From assembly GCA_025358085.1 (NCBI GenBank), contig JANYKT010000102.1:1-64000 (forward strand): a stretch of 64,000 bases of DNA, given 5' to 3'. Under the pieces are notes generated by a model that was not told where the DNA came from, searched no databases, and saw only the letters and a list, made by a program, of their open reading frames with translations. This stretch comes from Deltaproteobacteria bacterium (GTDB lineage: Bacteria; Myxococcota; Myxococcia; Myxococcales; 40CM-4-68-19). Position 1 is the first letter of the stretch, and each line of letters begins with the position of its first letter. The position numbers and the translations under genes are program-made. Positions 8,673 to 18,216 of this stretch are shown here, one piece after another.

Positions 8673-9737
8673 GTGCGTACGCTTTACCAGCTTGCCCGCC
8701 CGCTGCTCTTTTCCCTCGAGGCAGAGCGCGCGCACTCGCTCGCGGGCGCCTGGCTGCGAGTCTCCGCGCGGCTGCGCCCGCGACCTGTGCTGCCGCCGTG
8801 GCCGTCTTTGCGCCAGACTGTTTTCGGGCTCGACTTTCCCTCTCCGGTGGGTCTCGCCGCGGGGATGGATAAAGGCGAGGTCGTCGCTCCCGCCTGGTTC
8901 GGACTGGGCTTCGGCTTTGTCGAGATCGGGTCCATCACCCCGCGCCCGCAGCCCGGCAATCCGCGGCCGCGGCTCTTTCGTTTGATTGAGCAGCGCGCGG
9001 TGATCAATCGAATGGGCTTCAATAACGCCGGTGCCGACGCGGTGGCTTCCCGGTTGCGCGCGCTACCCCGTCAGCCGGGGCCCATCGGTATCAATCTGGG
9101 CAAGAACAAGGACACTCCCAATGAGCGGGCCGCGGAGGACTACGTCTCGGCCTTTCGCACGCTCGCGCCCCTCGCCGATTACGCGGCCATCAATGTATCC
9201 AGTCCCAACACGCCGGGCTTGCGCGCGCTGCAGCAGGATCTCGGCGCACTTGTTCGCGCCGTCGCTGTCGAGCGCGACGCGCTGCCGCGCCGGATCCCAT
9301 TGCTGGTCAAGTTGTCTCCCGACGAGACCTCCATTGAAAGGATCGCCGCGGCTGCCGTCGAAGCCGGAGCCGACGGAATCATTGCGACCAATACGACTCT
9401 CGAGCGTTCGGACGTTGCTGGTCACCCGCGCGCGGGCGAGGCGGGCGGGCTCTCGGGCGCGCCGCTTCGCCTGGCCGCGCAGCGGGCCTGCGCCCGGCTG
9501 CATCTGGCATTGGGCCCTCGCGTGCCATTGATTGGAGTGGGCGGAATCTTTACCGCCGAGGATGCTTATGCACGCATTCGTGCCGGAGCTTCTTTGATTC
9601 AGCTCTATACAGCACTGATCTATGAAGGCCCCGGCGTTGCCCGCGCCGTCGCGTCCGGCCTCGCGCGCCTGCTGGAGCGCGACCAACTCACGCTCTCGCA
9701 GGCCATTGGACTCGACGCAAAGGAACTTGCCTTATGA
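8673..9737 (+). CDS. pyrD: Dihydroorotate dehydrogenase (quinone), class 2
   Basis: Oxidises dihydroorotate to orotate in pyrimidine synthesis and passes electrons to the quinone pool at the inner membrane. The N-terminal amphipathic segment (PLLFSLEAERAHSLAG), which docks class 2 enzymes on the membrane, is present. GLAAGMDKG, GFVEIGSITP, NRMGFNN, INLGKNKDTP and GVGGIFTAEDAYARI bind FMN and substrate, and the catalytic Ser lies in NVSSPNTPGLR. GTG start at 8673. Its stop overlaps the next start as ATGA. It diverges from hisZ across 146 bases in which no clear promoter was seen. Confidence 0.96.
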   Translation: MRTLYQLARPLLFSLEAERAHSLAGAWLRVSARLRPRPVLPPWPSLRQTVFGLDFPSPVGLAAGMDKGEVVAPAWFGLGFGFVEIGSITPRPQPGNPRPRLFRLIEQRAVINRMGFNNAGADAVASRLRALPRQPGPIGINLGKNKDTPNERAAEDYVSAFRTLAPLADYAAINVSSPNTPGLRALQQDLGALVRAVAVERDALPRRIPLLVKLSPDETSIERIAAAAVEAGADGIIATNTTLERSDVAGHPRAGEAGGLSGAPLRLAAQRACARLHLALGPRVPLIGVGGIFTAEDAYARIRAGASLIQLYTALIYEGPGVARAVASGLARLLERDQLTLSQAIGLDAKELAL

Positions 9738-9997
9738 GCCGCCATCTTTTCACCGTCGAAGACTCTTCCCCTCTCGCCGGCCAGGGCCTCGTCCTGCTCC
9801 CCGGTGTTCCTCCCGATATCCAGTTGGGCGGCGCGACCTCCGTGGAACTCAAGCTCCCCAACGGCGTCTGCGTGGTCGCCCGCGTCGCCGGCATGGCCCA
9901 TTTTGGCCGCAAGCCCGGCGCGCCAACTCCGCTCCTCATCGCCCGCAGCCCGCTCGACCTCGAAGTCCCCCGCGGCACCGAAGTCTGGACGGCCTGA
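9734..9997 (+). CDS. Small EF-Tu-domain-II-like protein coupled to pyrD
   Basis: An 87-residue protein overlapping pyrD by ATGA, so probably translated with it. The spacing of conserved residues (HLFTVED, GQGLVLLPGV, VELKLPNG, RVAGMAHF, then PLLIA and VPRGTEVW) resembles the second beta-barrel domain of translational GTPases, but no GTPase domain is attached. Such a barrel usually binds RNA or protein. The function is unknown and the fold is an inference by eye. No signal peptide or transmembrane segment. Confidence 0.7.
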   Translation: MSRHLFTVEDSSPLAGQGLVLLPGVPPDIQLGGATSVELKLPNGVCVVARVAGMAHFGRKPGAPTPLLIARSPLDLEVPRGTEVWTA

Positions 9998-10029
9998 GAC
10001 CAAAAAGTCTTGCTACGCGATGCGCCAAG

Positions 10030-10983
10030 TCAGGCGGGTTCGCCAGCGGGGATCGTCCCCGCGGCGGCGACAGGATTGGGCGCGCCGAGGGGGCCGAAGG
10101 CGGCGCGGAAGGCGAGCGATACCGTGATGGCGATGGCGAGTCCGGCGAAGAGGTCGAGTACATAGTGGTGATTGAGATAGACGGCGCTGAAGCAGACCAA
10201 CAACCAATACGCCAGCGCGACGATACGGAAGCGGCGGAGCTGGATTGAATAGACCAGCGCAAGGAATGGGTAGACGATGTGTAGTGAGGGAATGGCGCCG
10301 AAGACGTCGGCGCTCTTGCTGTAGAAGCCTTGCATGATGGGCATTCCCACCAGTTGATCAAAGCGAACGGTGCCGGCGGGGGAAGCGCGAACACTCAAAT
10401 CGAGGAGAAAGCCATGTTCAGCCACATACCAGGGCGGGGCGGCGGGATAGATGTAATAGAAACTGAAACCGACGAAGTTCGCGATGACGAAGACCCAGGC
10501 GAAGCGCTGGGCGCGGCGTTCCATGCCGTGGAATTGCATCCAGATGGCGAGCAGGATGGACTCGCCGACGAAGAAGAATGGCGTGTAGGAGAGGCCGCAG
10601 ACGAAGTCGAGCACGTTCGCGGTGTGCTTCTGCAGCCATTCATTCGGGGTCTGGCCGGCAATCCCGAAGAACCGCAAGTCGAAGTCGTACGGTTCGTGGA
10701 TGTGAATCAAAGGTGATCGGATGGCGTCGGCGTACCAGCGCATTGAATCGTAGACGCTGACCCAGAGGATGAAGGGCAGGCCAACCCGCGCGAGTTTGCG
10801 GGAACCGTCGCTGAAGAAGCCAAGGCCGAATGCCAGTCCGGCGGCGAGCAGGTGCTCGGGCCGAAGGTCGTGCGCGGCGAAGCGGGCGAGGAAAAGATAG
10901 ATCAGGCAAAGCAACGGCAACTCGCGCCGGTAGACGACGGGCGCGCGGCGATAGGCAGCGACCCGCTCAGATAGAGACAACAT
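10030..10983 (-). CDS. PAP2 / AUR1-like integral membrane phosphotransferase
   Basis: A 317-residue protein with about six hydrophobic helices. The lipid-phosphatase core is visible: YPAAPPWYV before a hydrophobic stretch, GAIPSLHIVYPFL with the Ser-His pair, and YLNHHYVLDLFAGL with the second catalytic His and Asp. The PSLH and HHYxxD pattern preceded by P-P-W-Y is that of the PAP2_3 group, which includes fungal inositol-phosphorylceramide synthase Aur1. It could move a phosphoinositol headgroup between lipids or remove a lipid phosphate at the outer face of the inner membrane. The ATG overlaps the stop of the MMPL gene by one base (TGATG); it is the last gene of the four-gene lipid cluster. 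Confidence 0.85.
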   Translation of the reverse strand: MLSLSERVAAYRRAPVVYRRELPLLCLIYLFLARFAAHDLRPEHLLAAGLAFGLGFFSDGSRKLARVGLPFILWVSVYDSMRWYADAIRSPLIHIHEPYDFDLRFFGIAGQTPNEWLQKHTANVLDFVCGLSYTPFFFVGESILLAIWMQFHGMERRAQRFAWVFVIANFVGFSFYYIYPAAPPWYVAEHGFLLDLSVRASPAGTVRFDQLVGMPIMQGFYSKSADVFGAIPSLHIVYPFLALVYSIQLRRFRIVALAYWLLVCFSAVYLNHHYVLDLFAGLAIAITVSLAFRAAFGPLGAPNPVAAAGTIPAGEPA

Positions 10984-13454
10984 CAGGCTCCCTGGTGCTG
11001 CGCGGTGTCCACCAGCACGGGGGCCTTCCGGTCGCGCAGGCTGAGGAGCGCGGGCAGAGCGAAGAGCGCCGCCGAGAGGCAGGTGACTTCGCCGAGTACG
11101 GCAGTGAGGCCGAAGCTCTGGATGGCCTGGTTGTCGGCGGCGATCAGCGTTGCGTAACCGATGATGGTGGTCAGAGAGCAGAGCGCCACCGCCCCGCCCG
11201 AGGTGCCGAGTGCGTCTTCGACGCTTCTCGTCTGCTTGTAGCGCTGGTAGAGATTGACCGCGTAATCGACGCCGATACCGAAGGTGATTGGCAAGACTGC
11301 GAAATTAACGAAGTTGAGCTTGAGAGACAAGAGGCTCATCAAACCGGCCATCCAGAGCATTCCGAGCGTCAACGAGCCGATGACCCAGGCTGCGTCGCGA
11401 AGTGAGCGCAACACCAACAAAGTCAGCAGGGACACCGCGAGAAAACTCAAGAGTGCCGTCAGGCCACCCTCGCTGGTGATGGCGCCGACGATATCAGTCG
11501 TGAGCACAATCTGGCCGGCGACACGCGCGCGCTTGTCGACCCTCCAGGAGGCCTCGCGCACGGCCCGCGAATGGGCGATTTGCGCCAGGCCATTGGCCGA
11601 ATCGGTCGACAAAGTCGGGAATACCAGGACGAGTCTTCCGCTGTGGCCGTCTTTTTCGAAGAACGGCTCGGTGAGGCGCGCGGGAATATCGGCAATGCCG
11701 ACCGGCGTCAGCTTGGTGCTCTGGCGCAGGCGGGCGATTTCGGGCGGCATCGCCGAGGGCTTCTGATCGAGAATGGCGAAGATTTCGCTCAAGAGCGCAA
11801 GCTTGCGCGGCTGATCAACCGGGAGGAGTTTCTGCAGACTCGTGACCGACTCGATGGTGCCCTGGGGGCCCTCGAACTCGCGTTCCTTGTCGACCGACGC
11901 AGCCACGGCTTCCGCGCTCTCGGCCGAGTCGGTGAGCACCACGGTGGGCGTCTGGTAGCTCTGCAAGACTGCGTCGACGTGCTTGTCCCAGTAGCCGGCG
12001 CCGCTGTCGATTCCCGAGCGGCTCCCGAGCTTGCGAAAGTCATATTGAATGGGATCTTCGAGGAATCGCACCATGGCAAAGCCCGAGCCGACGGCGAGCA
12101 CCGCGGTCAAGGCCACGGCCCACGCCGGCCGCCGGACGACCAGCGCTGCGAAGCGCCCGGCGATCCAGCCAACCGCCGCGGGGTGTTTGCGGGTGGAGAG
12201 TTCGTGGAAGGGCCAGAGTCGCTCGACCAGCACGATGAGCGCAGGCATCAACGAATAGGTGGAAAGCCAGCAGAACAGCATTCCAAAGAAGCCCATGAAG
12301 GCGAATTGATTGAACCCGCGGAAGCTGACGAATCCCAGGGACCCATAGCTCGCGGCCGCTGCGGCGCTGGCGACGAAGGTGCCTGTCCAGGTCCCGCGCA
12401 ATGCGAGCGGAAGAGCGTCGGGCAGCGCCTTGCCGCGGCGCCGCTCCTCCAGATAGCGCGCCAACAAGATGATACCGGCGTTGATTCCATTGCCAACGAT
12501 GATGCTGCCGAGAAAAGCGGTATTGGGATTCAGATAGTGAATGACCGCGCGCGAGAGAGCGAAAGTCAGCGAGACTCCGGTAAAAAGCGGCAATACCAGC
12601 AAGGGCAGGGCGCGCAGGGTCTGGTAGTACAGCACCAGCGCGAGGCCGACCGCCAGCAGCACCAGCACGCCTGTGATCTGCAGGTCCCTGACCAATGCCT
12701 CCTGCGCCTCGATGACGCTGCGGATCTCCCCGCCGTAGCCGACCTTGATATGGCCGCCATACTTCGATGGATCGACCTCCCGCACCACCTGCTCGACCGC
12801 GCGGAAGATGATTTGATCGTCGTCGAGGCTGACCGCGGCGCCTGGGGGAAAGACGGAAACCACCAACGTGTGGCCGCCTTCGCCGGCGAGGTAGCCGTCC
12901 GGGTATCGGTCGATCCGCGCAAAGGCCCCGCGCAGCCGAGCGAGCGCGGCATCGGTGCTTGCGGAACTCTTTGCCTGCCCGGTGGCGGCGTGGTCGTCGT
13001 CGAGATCCACCAGGAGCGGATTGACGCGGGCGACCTGCGCTTTCAATGAGTCCCGGATTTGAAGCAGGTCCTTTGTGTCGGCGAAGAGCGCACCGTGCGA
13101 CTCGAAGAAGGCGCGCTCGGCGTCCACGCGCCAGAAGATGCGAGCCACCGTAGAGGGCGGGAGCTGCTGGAGCTTCGCCACCAGCGCGTCGACGAAGCGT
13201 TCGCCGGATTTGAGGTCATCGGTGCGCACCACGATGGCAAGCGACGAGAAGCCGCCAACGCGCTTCTCCAGCTCTTCGAGTCCGACCGCGGCCGGCGCGC
13301 CGTGCGGCAGGAGTTCGCGCAGATCGGTGCGCAGGTCTCCGTAGAGCCGCGCTGTCGCGGGCACGCAGAGGCCGAACGCGAGCAGTCCCGCGATGGCGAT
13401 GGTTCCCGGCCTGCGCATTGAAAGCAAGGTCCAGCGATTCCAGAACGCGTTCAC
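10983..13454 (-). CDS. MMPL/RND-family lipid exporter
   Basis: An 823-residue RND-superfamily protein with the classic duplicated plan. There is one N-terminal transmembrane helix, a large periplasmic loop, a block of helices around residues 255-430, a second periplasmic loop and a final helix block. GVDYAVNLYQRYKQTRS and VGNGINAGIILLARYLEERR are the two copies of the RND motif after helix 4 of each half. It resembles hopanoid-type (HpnN) and MmpL lipid transporters more than drug pumps, and no periplasmic adaptor gene lies beside it. It sits between the aminotransferase and the PAP2 gene, so export of the lipid made by this cluster is a reasonable inference. Confidence 0.85.
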   Translation of the reverse strand: MNAFWNRWTLLSMRRPGTIAIAGLLAFGLCVPATARLYGDLRTDLRELLPHGAPAAVGLEELEKRVGGFSSLAIVVRTDDLKSGERFVDALVAKLQQLPPSTVARIFWRVDAERAFFESHGALFADTKDLLQIRDSLKAQVARVNPLLVDLDDDHAATGQAKSSASTDAALARLRGAFARIDRYPDGYLAGEGGHTLVVSVFPPGAAVSLDDDQIIFRAVEQVVREVDPSKYGGHIKVGYGGEIRSVIEAQEALVRDLQITGVLVLLAVGLALVLYYQTLRALPLLVLPLFTGVSLTFALSRAVIHYLNPNTAFLGSIIVGNGINAGIILLARYLEERRRGKALPDALPLALRGTWTGTFVASAAAAASYGSLGFVSFRGFNQFAFMGFFGMLFCWLSTYSLMPALIVLVERLWPFHELSTRKHPAAVGWIAGRFAALVVRRPAWAVALTAVLAVGSGFAMVRFLEDPIQYDFRKLGSRSGIDSGAGYWDKHVDAVLQSYQTPTVVLTDSAESAEAVAASVDKEREFEGPQGTIESVTSLQKLLPVDQPRKLALLSEIFAILDQKPSAMPPEIARLRQSTKLTPVGIADIPARLTEPFFEKDGHSGRLVLVFPTLSTDSANGLAQIAHSRAVREASWRVDKRARVAGQIVLTTDIVGAITSEGGLTALLSFLAVSLLTLLVLRSLRDAAWVIGSLTLGMLWMAGLMSLLSLKLNFVNFAVLPITFGIGVDYAVNLYQRYKQTRSVEDALGTSGGAVALCSLTTIIGYATLIAADNQAIQSFGLTAVLGEVTCLSAALFALPALLSLRDRKAPVLVDTAQHQGA

Positions 13455-13463
13455 TAGGGGCCT

Positions 13464-14804
13464 TTAGGCCGCGCCGTGGCGGCGGGCGACGGCGGCGATG
13501 GATTCGCGCAGGAGCGAGAGGCCCGACAGCGCCGTGTCGCGATCGATGGTGAGCGCCGGCTGCAAGCGGATGGCGTGCGTGTAGCTCATGGCCAAAAGAC
13601 CGCGTTGCAAGCCGTCCTGGAAGATCTCGTCGCAGATCTTCTTTGCCAGCGGCTCCTTGGTCTTCCGGTCGGAGACCAGCTCGACCGCGAGGAAGAGTCC
13701 TTCGCCGCGGACGTCACCGACCCAGCGCAGCTGATCCGGCCAGGTGCGCAGCTCGGCCAGCATCGCGGCCCCCACCTCGAGCACGTTCTGCAGGACGTTC
13801 TCGTTTTGCAGGATGCGCAGGGACGCCAGCGCCGCCGTGGCGGCCAGCGGATTGCCGCCATAGGAGGACGAGGATCCGCTTGGGTTGGACCACGGTTTCG
13901 CCTGCGCAATTTCTTTGCGCGCGACCACGCCGCTGATAGGGAAGCCGCCGCCGAAGGCCTTGCCGAGCGTGATGATGTCCGGCGTGACGTCACTGCGCTC
14001 GCTCGCAAACCAGCGGCCGGTGCGGCCGAAGCCGGTAATCATCTCGTCGGCGATGAAGAGCGCGCCGTGGTCGTGAGCCATCTCGGCCATGGCCTTCATG
14101 AAGTCGGGCGGGGGAATGACGTTGCCGGCGGTCCCTTGCAGCGGCTCCATGATCACCGCCGCGAGGGAGCCCGTGGTGGCATGCTTGAGCTGGTCGCGCG
14201 CAAGGTCTGCGCAGGCGAGGCCGCAATGGGTCGGCTCAAGCTTGAGCGGGCACCGGTAGCAGTTGGCGAACGGCAGGACATGGCCGCCCGCGGGGAGCGG
14301 GCCATAGGACTTCGCATTGCCGGCGCCGTTGACCGCGAGGGTACCGAGCGTCTTGCCGTGGAAGCCTCCCCAGAAACCCGCGACCTCATGGTGGCCGGTT
14401 GCATTCTTGGCCAGGCGGAGAGCGCTTTCCACCGCTTCGGCGCCGCTCGAGTAGAGCTGGACGCGGTCGACGCCCTTCGGCGTGAGCCTGGCCACCTCAT
14501 TGATCAACTCCGCGCGGGGCGCGCTGGTGAAGGAGCCGACGGAAACCTTATCGAGCTGCGCGTGCATGGCCTTGCGATACTCAGGGTGCGAATGGCCCAG
14601 GGCGTTGACGCCGATGCCGCCAATGAGATCGACGAAGCGGTTGCCGTCGACGTCCTCGATGACGCTGCCTTCCGCGCGCTCCACCGCGATACCGCTCGAG
14701 AGCGCGAAGCCCTGCATCCCGGGCGCAAGGTGCTGTTGCTCGTGGCGCACCAGCGCCTGCGATTTGGGGCCGGGGATGGCGGTCTGGATGTGCGGAGCTT
14801 TCAC
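13464..14804 (-). CDS. Class III PLP-dependent aminotransferase
   Basis: Fold-type I aminotransferase of 446 residues in the 4-aminobutyrate/acetylornithine/racemase group. SSGAEAVESALRLAK binds the cofactor phosphate, DEMITGFGRTG holds the ring-contacting Asp, and TLGKAFGGGFP has the Schiff-base Lys282. A four-Cys segment (NCYRCPLKLEPTHCGLACAD, residues 181-200) is seen in some archaeal and bacterial members of this group. GTG start at 14804. The amine acceptor is unknown. Its place between a CDP-alcohol phosphatidyltransferase fusion and a lipid exporter suggests an amino group on a lipid precursor rather than GABA catabolism, but that is inference. Confidence 0.85.
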   Translation of the reverse strand: MKAPHIQTAIPGPKSQALVRHEQQHLAPGMQGFALSSGIAVERAEGSVIEDVDGNRFVDLIGGIGVNALGHSHPEYRKAMHAQLDKVSVGSFTSAPRAELINEVARLTPKGVDRVQLYSSGAEAVESALRLAKNATGHHEVAGFWGGFHGKTLGTLAVNGAGNAKSYGPLPAGGHVLPFANCYRCPLKLEPTHCGLACADLARDQLKHATTGSLAAVIMEPLQGTAGNVIPPPDFMKAMAEMAHDHGALFIADEMITGFGRTGRWFASERSDVTPDIITLGKAFGGGFPISGVVARKEIAQAKPWSNPSGSSSSYGGNPLAATAALASLRILQNENVLQNVLEVGAAMLAELRTWPDQLRWVGDVRGEGLFLAVELVSDRKTKEPLAKKICDEIFQDGLQRGLLAMSYTHAIRLQPALTIDRDTALSGLSLLRESIAAVARRHGAA

Positions 14805-14890
14805 TCTGGAATGACCTCTCTCTGCTGGCTATGATTCCGGACCGCGGGATTCGTCGCGCGGGCACCGTCGAACGCAAAAACTAAAGCTTT

Positions 14891-17263
14891 TTAGAAAGCG
14901 GGCAGGGAGGCAGGCTTGTTCGCATAAGCGAACTCGCTGAGAGCCTGGCCGCTGCGCTCTTCCGTTTTCTGGCCGGGGCGCTCGATCTTCAGCGAGTAGT
15001 GGTCTTCATACGTGTAGGTCATCGGCGCGGCGACGGTGCTGACCAGGAGGCGCGAGAGGGGGCCCATCTCGCTGAGTACGTCCTGCTTGTACAGCAGCCT
15101 TTTCGCGTCGATGCGGGCGGTCAGCGTCTCGCCCTGCGAGCCCCTCGCAACCACCACGATGCCCTGCGGCACGTCGTACTCGAAGTGGCCGCCGACCTCG
15201 TGGCGCGGGCTTTCGAAGGCGAGCTTCACGTCGGTGGAGCGCACCTCGGTGTGGCCGTCTTTGGAAGTATAGAGCCAGCCCTGCGGGGGGAGCCGCGAGC
15301 CCACTGGGGGAAAGAGCACCGCGAGAGCGGCGGTGGTTCCCGCATGGTCGTCGAACGCTTCCATCTTGAACCAGAGCGAGGCGCTCTTGTAAGCCGGCAT
15401 GGTCGAGTAAGACGTGTCGGCGTAGCAAAAGCCTTTCATGCGCTTGGAGCCCTGGGTCACGCTCCACATGGTGCCGTCGAAGCGCGAGCGCAGCGCGAAG
15501 ATGGTCTGGTCGAAGACCGCGTGCCCTCCGGCGTCGAAGACAACCCGGCCGCCGCCCGGACGGACTGCTTGCGTTTCCGGCAGCACTGTTGCGTCCACCA
15601 CCAGCTTCTTGCCGGCGAAATGCACATGGTGGCTGGCATCGGGACCCATGGTAAGGCGCGAGCCGCCCATCTCGATCGCTCCCTCGGGGATGACGCTCCA
15701 CTGGCCCGATTCGAAGGTGTCCGAGTCTTCGGTGCTCTTGCCGTCGGCGCTGACCACCACCGCGCGGACAGCAGCCTTGCCGTGTCCAGCGAGACCAGCG
15801 TTGGAGACGAGGAACTGGACGCGCGCGAATGAGCCGTCCTCGCCGGAGAAGAGAAATGAGTAGCTCTCGGAGTAGTACGCCTCGGGCCGGAGCTTGGGCA
15901 GAAAGCTCGTCTGCGTGACGTTGCCGTCGTCGGGGGCGGCGACACTGAAACCGTGGACCTGCTCGGCGGCGAAGGGGTCACCGTAGGACACGAAGAGGAC
16001 CGCCATGGCTGCGAGACCGGACGCAACGGCACCGAAGATGGCGAGGCCTGGGCGCGGCTTTCCGGTCTGCTCGCTAAAGACGAAGATGCGGTGCAGCGGC
16101 AGGTTCCAGCCCAGCGAGACCACGACCCCGACCAGCGGGGCGGCGGCGAGCGCATTCCAGCGCAGGCCTTCGGTCAAGAGAATGACGCCGACCGTGTTGA
16201 GGAGCAGCGAGGTCAGCGAAATGGCGGCGTAACGCGGCAGCTCCACCCAGAGCGAGTTTTCGCGCGTCTTGAAAGTCCACAGCTTGTTGACGGTAAAGTT
16301 GGTGGCGGCGCCGATCAGCGCGCCCAGCGCTCGCGCGGTGCCGGTGTAGATCCCGATCACCTCCAGCAAGATCGCGAAGGTGCCGTAGTCGATGACGGTG
16401 GCGATGGCCGAGGCGACCCAAGCTCGCTGGAACCACCCCGAAAGCTCCTCCTCGCGAGTGGCTGGCGCCGTCTGGACAGGCAGCGGATCGCGCTTGCGAA
16501 GCTCGGCGTGGATGAAGATGAAGCGCCGCAGCGCCGTCACATTGGCCATGACGGCGATCAGGCCGAGCGCAACCAGTAACAGGTGGAACAGGGGGTGTAA
16601 CGATCCCGGTTCGTACCAGCTGGCGAGCGAAGGTGCGAAGACGCCGGCGATGCCGATGTAGACAGCGCGCTCGCCGCGGTTCATGGAGCCCATCCGGGCG
16701 TCGATGCCGCTGATTTCTCCCTTGGCGCGGGCGTACGAGACGAGCAGGGCGCCGCCCAGGGACAAGAGCGCCATCCAGAAGCCGGGCGGAAAGTCGCGAT
16801 AATAAGCGGCGATACCAGCGAAAGTAGCGACCTCGGCGTAGCGGTCGACCGCGGCATCGAAGAGTTCGCCTGCATCGGACGAGATGCCGCGCGCGCGTGC
16901 CACCATGCCGTCGAGCGCGTCGAGGATTGCGCACACAAGGACGCCGGCCCCGCCCAGTGCTGGCTTGCCCAGCGCAAAAGCGACCGCTCCCGCGAACGCC
17001 GCCAGGAGAGAAGCCACCGTCAACTGATTGGGAGTGATGCTCGTTCTGAGGAGAGCAGCCTCGACGGGGTCGAAGCACCAGTAGGCGAATTCAATGAGCA
17101 CCCGGCTCATGAAGATGCTTCCCGGCTCCTTCTTGGCGCGCGCGGACTCGTACCGCCCATAAAGGCGAACGCGGACGGCATAGCCCACGAGCAGGCAGGC
17201 GAAGGAAGCAGTGATCGGTAGAAGCAGCAGGGTCTCTCCTCTCTCTGCTACGGTCACGCTCAC
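14891..17263 (-). CDS. Fusion of CDP-alcohol phosphatidyltransferase, GtrA-like domain and Svf1-like lipid-binding domain
   Basis: A 790-residue protein in three parts. Residues ~50-250 are a membrane CDP-alcohol phosphatidyltransferase with the full metal motif (Asp115, Asp118-Gly119, Ala122-Arg123, Gly132, Asp136, Asp140). The later MGSMNRGERAVY segment recalls phosphatidylinositol-phosphate synthases. Residues ~280-400 are a GtrA-like four-helix membrane domain with NFTVNKLWTF. After one more hydrophobic helix (~405-426), the last ~360 residues are soluble, beta-rich and probably periplasmic. SFARVQFLVSNAG, SASLWFKMEAF and DVLSEMGPLSRLLVSTV recall Svf1, the yeast ceramide-binding survival factor, and the wider lipocalin-like CrtC/AttH clan. 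GTG start at 17263; a later ATG at 17110 would drop the first helix. It is the first gene of the cluster. Confidence 0.8.
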   Translation of the reverse strand: MSVTVAERGETLLLLPITASFACLLVGYAVRVRLYGRYESARAKKEPGSIFMSRVLIEFAYWCFDPVEAALLRTSITPNQLTVASLLAAFAGAVAFALGKPALGGAGVLVCAILDALDGMVARARGISSDAGELFDAAVDRYAEVATFAGIAAYYRDFPPGFWMALLSLGGALLVSYARAKGEISGIDARMGSMNRGERAVYIGIAGVFAPSLASWYEPGSLHPLFHLLLVALGLIAVMANVTALRRFIFIHAELRKRDPLPVQTAPATREEELSGWFQRAWVASAIATVIDYGTFAILLEVIGIYTGTARALGALIGAATNFTVNKLWTFKTRENSLWVELPRYAAISLTSLLLNTVGVILLTEGLRWNALAAAPLVGVVVSLGWNLPLHRIFVFSEQTGKPRPGLAIFGAVASGLAAMAVLFVSYGDPFAAEQVHGFSVAAPDDGNVTQTSFLPKLRPEAYYSESYSFLFSGEDGSFARVQFLVSNAGLAGHGKAAVRAVVVSADGKSTEDSDTFESGQWSVIPEGAIEMGGSRLTMGPDASHHVHFAGKKLVVDATVLPETQAVRPGGGRVVFDAGGHAVFDQTIFALRSRFDGTMWSVTQGSKRMKGFCYADTSYSTMPAYKSASLWFKMEAFDDHAGTTAALAVLFPPVGSRLPPQGWLYTSKDGHTEVRSTDVKLAFESPRHEVGGHFEYDVPQGIVVVARGSQGETLTARIDAKRLLYKQDVLSEMGPLSRLLVSTVAAPMTYTYEDHYSLKIERPGQKTEERSGQALSEFAYANKPASLPAF

Positions 17264-17391: not shown

Positions 17392-18216
17392 CTACCGGCC
17401 ACCGGCCAGCGGCAACAGAACGATGACCATCGGGAGCCCGACGCCCTGGCTGCCGATGCTGTCTTCGAGCGGCTCTCCGCGCAGCGAGAGCGTTGCTTCC
17501 GGACCGCCGTCCAGGTTGAGCGCCTCGACCGCGCCCAGTTCGTCGGCGAGCCACTTGCCGACCTCGCGCCGCACCGCTGGCCACTGCGAGGCGAACAGCA
17601 GGATGCGGCCGTCGCGCAGCTGCGCAACGGCTGCAGTGCGCGAGGATTCGGCGCAGTAATGGACGCCGCTACAGGTCGCGGTGCTGCCGTGGACCAGCGC
17701 GGGGAAGCTCTTGAGCGCTTCAGCCCAGTCCGCGGCGTGGAAGTCGGCCGGAGCGAGGATCTGCGGCCCCGCTTTCACCGTGCTAGCCGGCGGCGACGAC
17801 TTCGATGTTGCGGCGCTGGCCGCGAAGAACAGCGCATCCTGCCGATGACAGCCAGCGCCGCGCACCTGCCGTCCGGCGGAGATCACGTCGCAGGTGGGTC
17901 GGACCTCGGCGCCGGGTGGGCCGTCGGTCGAATAAAAGGAGCCGTTCGCGATGGCGAGAGCGTTCGGGTAGCGGGCGCGCCAGGCAGCGAGGGTCGGCCG
18001 CGAAGGGTCGTACCGAACCGCGAACGTCGCGCGCTGCGGGTCCGCGAGTACGACCTTGGCGGCCCAGTTGGCGTCACCGCCGAGGTCCGCCACGGTTGCC
18101 GTCACCACGCCGGGCGCCAGCTCCTTCCACGGCGGACCGAGCGACCTCGCCACCGCATCAGTCGGCAGGGGAGGCTGCGCGACGGCGAGGGCGAAGCCGA
18201 GCAGCCAGAGCGTCAT
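17392..18216 (-). CDS. Secreted phosphodiester glycosidase (NAGPA-like domain)
   Basis: A 274-residue protein with a short signal peptide (TLWLLGFALAVAQP) and a phosphodiester glycosidase domain, the family of the mammalian uncovering enzyme that removes GlcNAc from GlcNAc-1-phospho-mannose. IANGSFYST and ALNLDGGPEATLSL are the two conserved turns (usual forms NGGFF and LDGGGSSTL). The start is chosen at 18216 because its ATG overlaps the ppk1 stop as TGATG. The same frame stays open upstream, but there it only shadows ppk1. The substrate is unknown; a periplasmic or cell-surface sugar phosphodiester is likely. Confidence 0.85.
   Translation of the reverse strand: MTLWLLGFALAVAQPPLPTDAVARSLGPPWKELAPGVVTATVADLGGDANWAAKVVLADPQRATFAVRYDPSRPTLAAWRARYPNALAIANGSFYSTDGPPGAEVRPTCDVISAGRQVRGAGCHRQDALFFAASAATSKSSPPASTVKAGPQILAPADFHAADWAEALKSFPALVHGSTATCSGVHYCAESSRTAAVAQLRDGRILLFASQWPAVRREVGKWLADELGAVEALNLDGGPEATLSLRGEPLEDSIGSQGVGLPMVIVLLPLAGGR

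Follow-up and report, generated by a model that had tools for sequence, protein, structure and literature searches.

Predicted assembly and export of an inositol-phosphosphingolipid-type lipid, possibly with an aminated head group, by a gene cluster of Myxococcota

Background

Genes for bacterial inositol lipids have been characterised in Bacteroides thetaiotaomicron (BT_1522, BT_1523, BT_1524 and BT_1526; PMC9246714, PMC8791184), and in the literature that we found, genes for bacterial inositol sphingolipids are assigned in Bacteroidetes only. Myxococcus xanthus is reported, in work cited in PMC9246714, to contain ceramide phosphoryl-myo-inositol. Here we describe a four-gene operon in a stretch of 64,000 nucleotides (GenBank assembly GCA_025358085.1, contig JANYKT010000102.1, labelled C55; hereafter, the window). 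The host genome, that of a soil bacterium (5.4 Mb, 98% complete), has relatives in the same order that include Myxococcus and Anaeromyxobacter, and thus belongs to an uncultured family of Myxococcales. By sequence, the operon seems rather likely to cover the assembly and export stages of a pathway of the inositol-phosphosphingolipid type, with a probably aminated head group.

The operon resembles BT_1522–BT_1526 in its AUR1-like transferase, its phosphatidylinositol-phosphate synthase (PIPS) and its GtrA protein, and MIPS (myo-inositol-phosphate synthase) is present in the genome. However, PIPS, GtrA and a lipocalin-like domain form a single protein in the window, and the operon adds an aminotransferase and an MMPL exporter, with a dedicated dehydrogenase associated; moreover, MIPS lies elsewhere with transport genes, and no PgpA-type phosphatase (BT_1525 in Bacteroides) is linked. 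The description of the genes as eukaryote-like, given in a preliminary description of this DNA, was overstated, since the set is of this known bacterial type. The M. xanthus locus (L092; MIPS-AUR1-[PIPS-GtrA]-lipocalin) contains the same families, including a fused PIPS-GtrA and an adjoining lipocalin gene, but it has neither the aminotransferase nor the dehydrogenase, its lipocalin is separate and its PIPS belongs to another clade. Our data supply gene candidates for the ceramide-phosphoinositol of this species.

Results and discussion

The operon and its products

All four open reading frames (ORFs) were confirmed. They lie on the minus strand in the order fusion protein, aminotransferase, MMPL protein and PAP2 protein, with spacings of 86 bp, 9 bp and a one-base overlap, so that the co-directional four-gene operon of the preliminary description is real. 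Homology and linkage give good support to the assembly of an inositol lipid by its products, as set out below.

The last gene (10030-10983, minus strand; 317 aa) encodes an AUR1-like PAP2 protein, a predicted phospho-inositol(-amine) transferase. Its PAP2_3 domain (PF14378) scored 82.4 bits, above the gathering score of 27; here and below, Pfam matches were called against curated cut-offs (gathering scores) and NCBIfam matches against equivalog cut-offs. Only one NCBIfam model was matched, namely phosphoinositol dihydroceramide synthase (NF052609; 181.8 bits, 2e-53, under the equivalog cut-off of 480 bits), and AUR1 was the only significant match in the PDB (5.8e-20). The AUR1-type motifs GAIPSLH (10279..10299, minus; H235) and HHYxxD (10153..10170, minus; H272, H273 and D277) align with those of AUR1, and these residues are invariant in 14 homologues. 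On these sequence grounds the protein groups with yeast AUR1 and the Bacteroides phosphoinositol-dihydroceramide synthase, as the earlier AUR1-like assignment had it, and not with undecaprenyl-pyrophosphate phosphatases. It shares with the yeast inositol phosphorylceramide synthase the PAP2 fold family and the PSLH and HHYxxD motifs, but it is bacterial and shorter, has other genomic partners and possibly transfers another head group.

The fusion protein (14891-17263, minus; 790 aa) contains, above the Pfam cut-offs, a CDP-OH_P_transf domain (46 bits) and a GtrA domain (70.4 bits; aa 285-396, 16076..16411, minus), the latter being the counterpart of BT_1524 and, in Anaeromyxobacter-like loci, a gene of its own adjoining PIPS. 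NCBIfam models of PIPS type scored 96-119 bits, below their equivalog cut-offs, and PIPS structures were matched in the PDB (4.7e-15). The PIPS catalytic domain (aa 77-183 by Pfam; 16715..17035, minus) has the complete CDP-alcohol motif D-x2-DG-x2-AR-x8-G-x3-D-x3-D (D115, D118, G119, A122, R123, G132, D136 and D140), the residues of which are invariant across 18 homologues; in an alignment with solved PIPS, S132/Y133, R152 and R155 are matched and K135 is replaced by Arg.

Hydropathy and sequence comparison indicate an extra transmembrane helix (aa 407-425; 15989..16045, minus) between GtrA and the C-terminal domain (14978..15952, minus), at the place where stand-alone homologues of this domain have a signal peptide. 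In Myxococcus, Corallococcus and Pyxidicoccus, PIPS-GtrA is followed downstream by a gene of this domain's family, and hidden Markov model searches seeded by either the domain or that gene retrieved the identical 47 sequences. In an AlphaFold2 model (pLDDT 65, pTM 0.66) it resembles AttH, kievitone hydratase and Fsa2/CghA, so that it is modelled as a two-domain lipocalin of the AttH/hydratase/Diels-Alderase type. Because the stand-alone copies start with a signal-peptide-like stretch, the domain is probably periplasmic. Membership of the ceramide-binding Svf1 family, to which the preliminary description had linked it, was rejected both on this location and on score (Svf1_C, PF17187, 23.3 bits against a gathering score of 25).

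The third gene (10983-13454, minus; 823 aa) encodes a predicted MMPL/RND lipid exporter (Pfam MMPL, 122 bits, above cut-off), which is nearest to HpnN: it matches HpnN structures in the PDB (1.5e-15) and the HpnN models TIGR03480 (223 bits, cut-off 752) and NF052374 (107 bits, cut-off 1100), in both cases below the cut-off. A further likeness to HpnN/HpnM hopanoid transport is an MlaC-like gene in the MIPS operon; the scores are, however, far under the HpnN cut-offs, and the partners are inositol-lipid genes and not hopanoid genes. In Anaeromyxobacter-like genomes, an ORF of about 1050 aa (L058:9388-12546, plus strand; also in L056 and L061) joins an AUR1-like PAP2 protein to an MMPL/RND protein and is, by its sequence, a synthase-exporter fusion.

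The second gene (13464-14804, minus; 446 aa) encodes a class-III aminotransferase (Aminotran_3, 320.6 bits, above cut-off) with the pyridoxal-phosphate lysine K282. It is 51-84% identical to the cluster aminotransferases of Myxococcota and Bdellovibrionota, in all of which K282 is invariant; its nearest relatives in the PDB are GABA transaminases and racemases.

Recurrence of the cluster

A scan with the fusion protein gave 80 named loci, onto which ten component families were mapped. An AUR1-like gene is nearby in 55 of the 80, even though the loci were picked by the fusion protein alone. In the window's family the order of fused PIPS-GtrA-lipocalin, aminotransferase, MMPL and AUR1 is kept wherever the contig is long enough (L038, L041-L045, L078, L080-L082 and L086). 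The Myxococcaceae layout is that of M. xanthus, without the aminotransferase and often with MMPL genes nearby, and Anaeromyxobacter-like loci contain PIPS, GtrA, MlaC, an outer-membrane efflux protein (OEP), aminotransferase, dehydrogenase, MMPL and AUR1, plus MIPS or lipocalin. The order MIPS-dehydrogenase-PIPS-GtrA-aminotransferase-AUR1-MMPL is found in other Myxococcota, and dehydrogenase-PIPS-aminotransferase-AUR1 in Bdellovibrionota. The co-occurrence in relatives that the preliminary description called for is thus found, and the pathway is spread across Myxococcota and, in part, Bdellovibrionota, with its synthesis genes linked to a candidate export route.

Since the same parts recur in varied orders and neighbours have fused (PIPS with GtrA and lipocalin, AUR1 with MMPL), they appear to serve one pathway. 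That unrelated membrane and metabolic genes are neighbours by chance, an explanation for which nothing speaks beyond the generic family names, is very improbable and is already refuted by these linkage and fusion data, the different orders being conserved over Myxococcota and partly over Bdellovibrionota.

Aminotransferase and dehydrogenase

The cluster aminotransferase, to which the preliminary description gave no specific role, is paired with a dehydrogenase, and this pairing is new. It is normally adjoined by one Gfo/Idh/MocA dehydrogenase; these dehydrogenases have the Gfo/Idh/MocA fold by Pfam, are 46-78% identical to the first sequence of their alignment, and share the EKP lysine and DxxxH (K105, D192 and H196, invariant in 15 sequences). 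Two of them scored 61 bits with the IolG inositol 2-dehydrogenase model (TIGR04380), under its equivalog cut-off of 355. In the window genome the dehydrogenase is on a separate contig, C213 (531 bits).

Among 99 relatives, the aminotransferase was found in 19 genomes, all 19 with the dehydrogenase, which occurs in only one of the other 80 (a genome 61% complete); among 179 Myxococcota genomes that are at least 80% complete, the two genes are present in the identical 18. In each of two genera, g15 and g27, both genes are present in a single species and absent from the remaining ones. The Fisher value of the association, 1.9e-19, overstates independence because the genomes are related; a handful of separate joint presences in mixed families or genera (f3, f4, g15, g27 and others) is left. 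The PIPS tree is split into two parts with 100/99 support: in one clade, none of 40 named loci has the aminotransferase or the dehydrogenase, whereas 32 of the 40 in the rest do, several others being contigs that end early. The two genes therefore follow the enzyme that chooses the head group. Residue differences between the PIPS clades near the active site (D130, E133 and A137) are suggestive and were not used, as they are partly common to Gemmatimonadota or due to ancestry.

A dehydrogenase and an aminotransferase, IolG and MosB, turn inositol into scyllo-inosamine in vitro (PMC6668481). Because the cluster pair corresponds to this known route, with a Gfo/Idh/MocA-type dehydrogenase and a pyridoxal-phosphate aminotransferase predicted to act on inositol, we predict that a sphingolipid-like lipid with a phospho-aminoinositol head group is made and exported. 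The cluster differs from the rhizopine/aminocyclitol route in that its aminotransferase is of class III, its substrate may be inositol phosphate and its product would enter a lipid. Taken alone, amination of the inositol head group, as judged from sequence, linkage and co-occurrence, is an evenly balanced proposition. Its main rival, which we consider unlikely, is that the lipid which the operon makes and exports is, like those of Bacteroides and M. xanthus, a plain inositol phosphoceramide or phosphatidylinositol with no amination, and that the aminotransferase and dehydrogenase act nearby in a separate step, such as inositol isomer interconversion or a head-group sugar. The core genes do match the characterised, non-aminating Bacteroides set, and class-III aminotransferases are versatile, as the relatives in the PDB illustrate. 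However, the two genes are present or absent jointly and are tied to one PIPS clade, and several clusters place them between MIPS and PIPS. A role for the aminotransferase as a substitute for serine palmitoyltransferase (SPT), in a new sphingoid-base route, was rejected: in the aminotransferase-bearing Anaeromyxobacter-like genomes SPT is also present, either within the cluster or next to it, whereas the aminotransferase tracks the dehydrogenase exactly.

Other pathway genes of the host genome

MIPS, one of the genes to be sought genome-wide according to the preliminary description, was found on contig C179 (319 bits), where it shares an operon with OEP and MlaC genes; relatives have both of these within the cluster. 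It thus lies outside the contig of the window's operon, unlike in the BT_1522-1526-type cluster. A second, divergent MIPS-like gene (L073, about 9000-10000, plus strand; G000:C153:15038-15946; 76 bits to PF07994) lies away from the other inositol-lipid genes.

For the ceramide backbone, the bacterial ceramide synthase that was likewise to be sought has a counterpart in a bCerS-like GNAT gene (contig C88; 41%), and a CerR-like epimerase is on contig C136 (67% to its counterpart in the related genome G002); both are conserved in the window's family. We take these to be CerR and bCerS types from their families (epimerase and GNAT), their neighbourhood and the Caulobacter pathway. On C136 the CerR-like gene adjoins, at the contig end, the N-terminus of a polyketide synthase (PKS), and the C-terminal portion of a PKS of this kind, with an alpha-oxoamine synthase (AOS) at its end, is on contig C3; G002 has a complete PKS-AOS, oriented divergently from the CerR-like gene. 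The PKS (KS-AT-ACP-KR-DH) ending in AOS (L193:4256-11032, plus; in the window genome L075:9443-15418, minus, and the end of L206) is kept beside the CerR-like epimerase in the window's family and is possibly a polyketide-type route to the sphingoid base; the genes flanking it on C3 appear menaquinone-type and unrelated. As for the SPT asked after in the preliminary description, an AOS domain is present in PKS-fused form, but a stand-alone SPT was not found in the host genome or its family, whereas Myxococcaceae and Anaeromyxobacter-like genomes have one. Of the canonical SPT candidates, those on C85 and C35 look like two bioF halves in a biotin operon, and that on C3 is the PKS-AOS.

It is accordingly conceivable, if rather doubtful, that the acceptor is not ceramide and that the AUR1-like enzyme transfers the head group to diacylglycerol, an ether lipid or a polyketide lipid. 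Besides the lack of a stand-alone SPT in the window's family, the PKS-AOS could yield a different amino-lipid, and no SPT lies beside the cluster in the Bdellovibrionota loci examined. The conservation of the bCerS-like and CerR-like genes speaks for a ceramide-like acceptor, however, as does their linkage: in G016 the aminotransferase, dehydrogenase, MMPL, SPT, bCerS-like and CerR-like genes form one run, and in one Myxococcaceae genome SPT-bCerS-CerR lies beside MMPL/MlaC/OEP genes.

Proposed pathway

The following scheme is based on homology, motifs, gene linkage, fusion and fission, and co-occurrence; the reactions themselves, the sequence of steps 2-4 and the acceptor are all inferred. 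(1) MIPS would make myo-inositol phosphate, (2) of which the dehydrogenase would oxidise a ring hydroxyl to a ketone, and (3) the operon's aminotransferase would convert the ketone to an amine, giving inosamine phosphate. (4) Within the fusion protein, PIPS would couple this to CDP-diacylglycerol, and a phosphatase, none being linked to the operon, would remove the surplus phosphate. (5) The AUR1-like protein would then move the phospho-cyclitol onto a ceramide-like acceptor, the base of which may come from the PKS-fused AOS with the CerR-like and bCerS-like enzymes, and (6) the MMPL pump, the lipocalin-like domain in the periplasm and the MlaC/OEP partners of the MIPS operon would carry the lipid towards the outer membrane.

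More broadly, and tentatively, we propose that Myxococcota and Bdellovibrionota share a cluster lineage that makes an inosamine-phosphate-headed membrane lipid by means of MIPS, a dedicated Gfo/Idh/MocA dehydrogenase, the class-III aminotransferase, a matching PIPS subfamily and the AUR1-like transferase, with dedicated MMPL/MlaC/OEP/lipocalin export and, in the window's family, a PKS-fused sphingoid-base synthase. Several points weigh against the pathway as set out above. In the window's own family the dehydrogenase gene lies apart from the operon, which on the other hand makes its co-occurrence with the aminotransferase more telling; ancestry alone accounts for many site differences between the two PIPS clades; and the MosB-type precedent concerns free inositol. 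Together with the missing stand-alone SPT, the AOS domain scores slightly higher as bioF (342 bits) than as SPT (309 bits), so that its assignment to SPT is tentative. No phosphatidylinositol-phosphate (PIP) phosphatase was found for the pathway, and the single PgpA of the genome was rejected as a linked one, since it is located elsewhere (C116), near another CDP-alcohol transferase. In the Myxococcaceae-type group, the lipocalin gene is immediately followed by a gene resembling dual-specificity phosphatases (L095:6955-7536, plus, and 11 other loci), which is a candidate PIP phosphatase.

The unusual phosphoinositol or aminated lipid of the preliminary description, made and exported by the operon, is thus favoured by the AUR1-type PAP2 protein, the gene co-occurrence and MIPS, and it has lost its Svf1 and eukaryote-like elements. 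The literature searched contained nothing relevant on inosamine or aminoinositol lipids. If the head group is indeed an aminoinositol, the result would be an inositol phospholipid whose ring bears a positive charge, a class without report in that literature, and this is directly testable in the cultured Anaeromyxobacter oryzae, whose strain Red232 (L132) has the aminotransferase, dehydrogenase, PIPS, GtrA and AUR1 genes.

Other observations

Relatives of the PIPS protein also occur in Gemmatimonadota (L138, L141-L148, L151 and L153), with no AUR1, MIPS or aminotransferase nearby. Among the neighbours of the PIPS relative in several of these loci are an SPT-like gene, an acyltransferase and a protein of 335 aa (L147:2907-3914), which is conserved and has no Pfam match. 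A cluster nearly identical to that of M. xanthus is found in a record titled Comamonas sp. KCTC 72670 (L091, BNCN01000008.1), which is probably mislabelled or contaminated.

The operon is flanked by housekeeping genes, namely ppk and a phosphodiester glycosidase upstream and pyrD and histidine genes downstream. The phosphodiester glycosidase gene (NAGPA; 17392-18216, minus), which adjoins ppk, is conserved in this upstream position within the window's family and is possibly an extra member of the operon.

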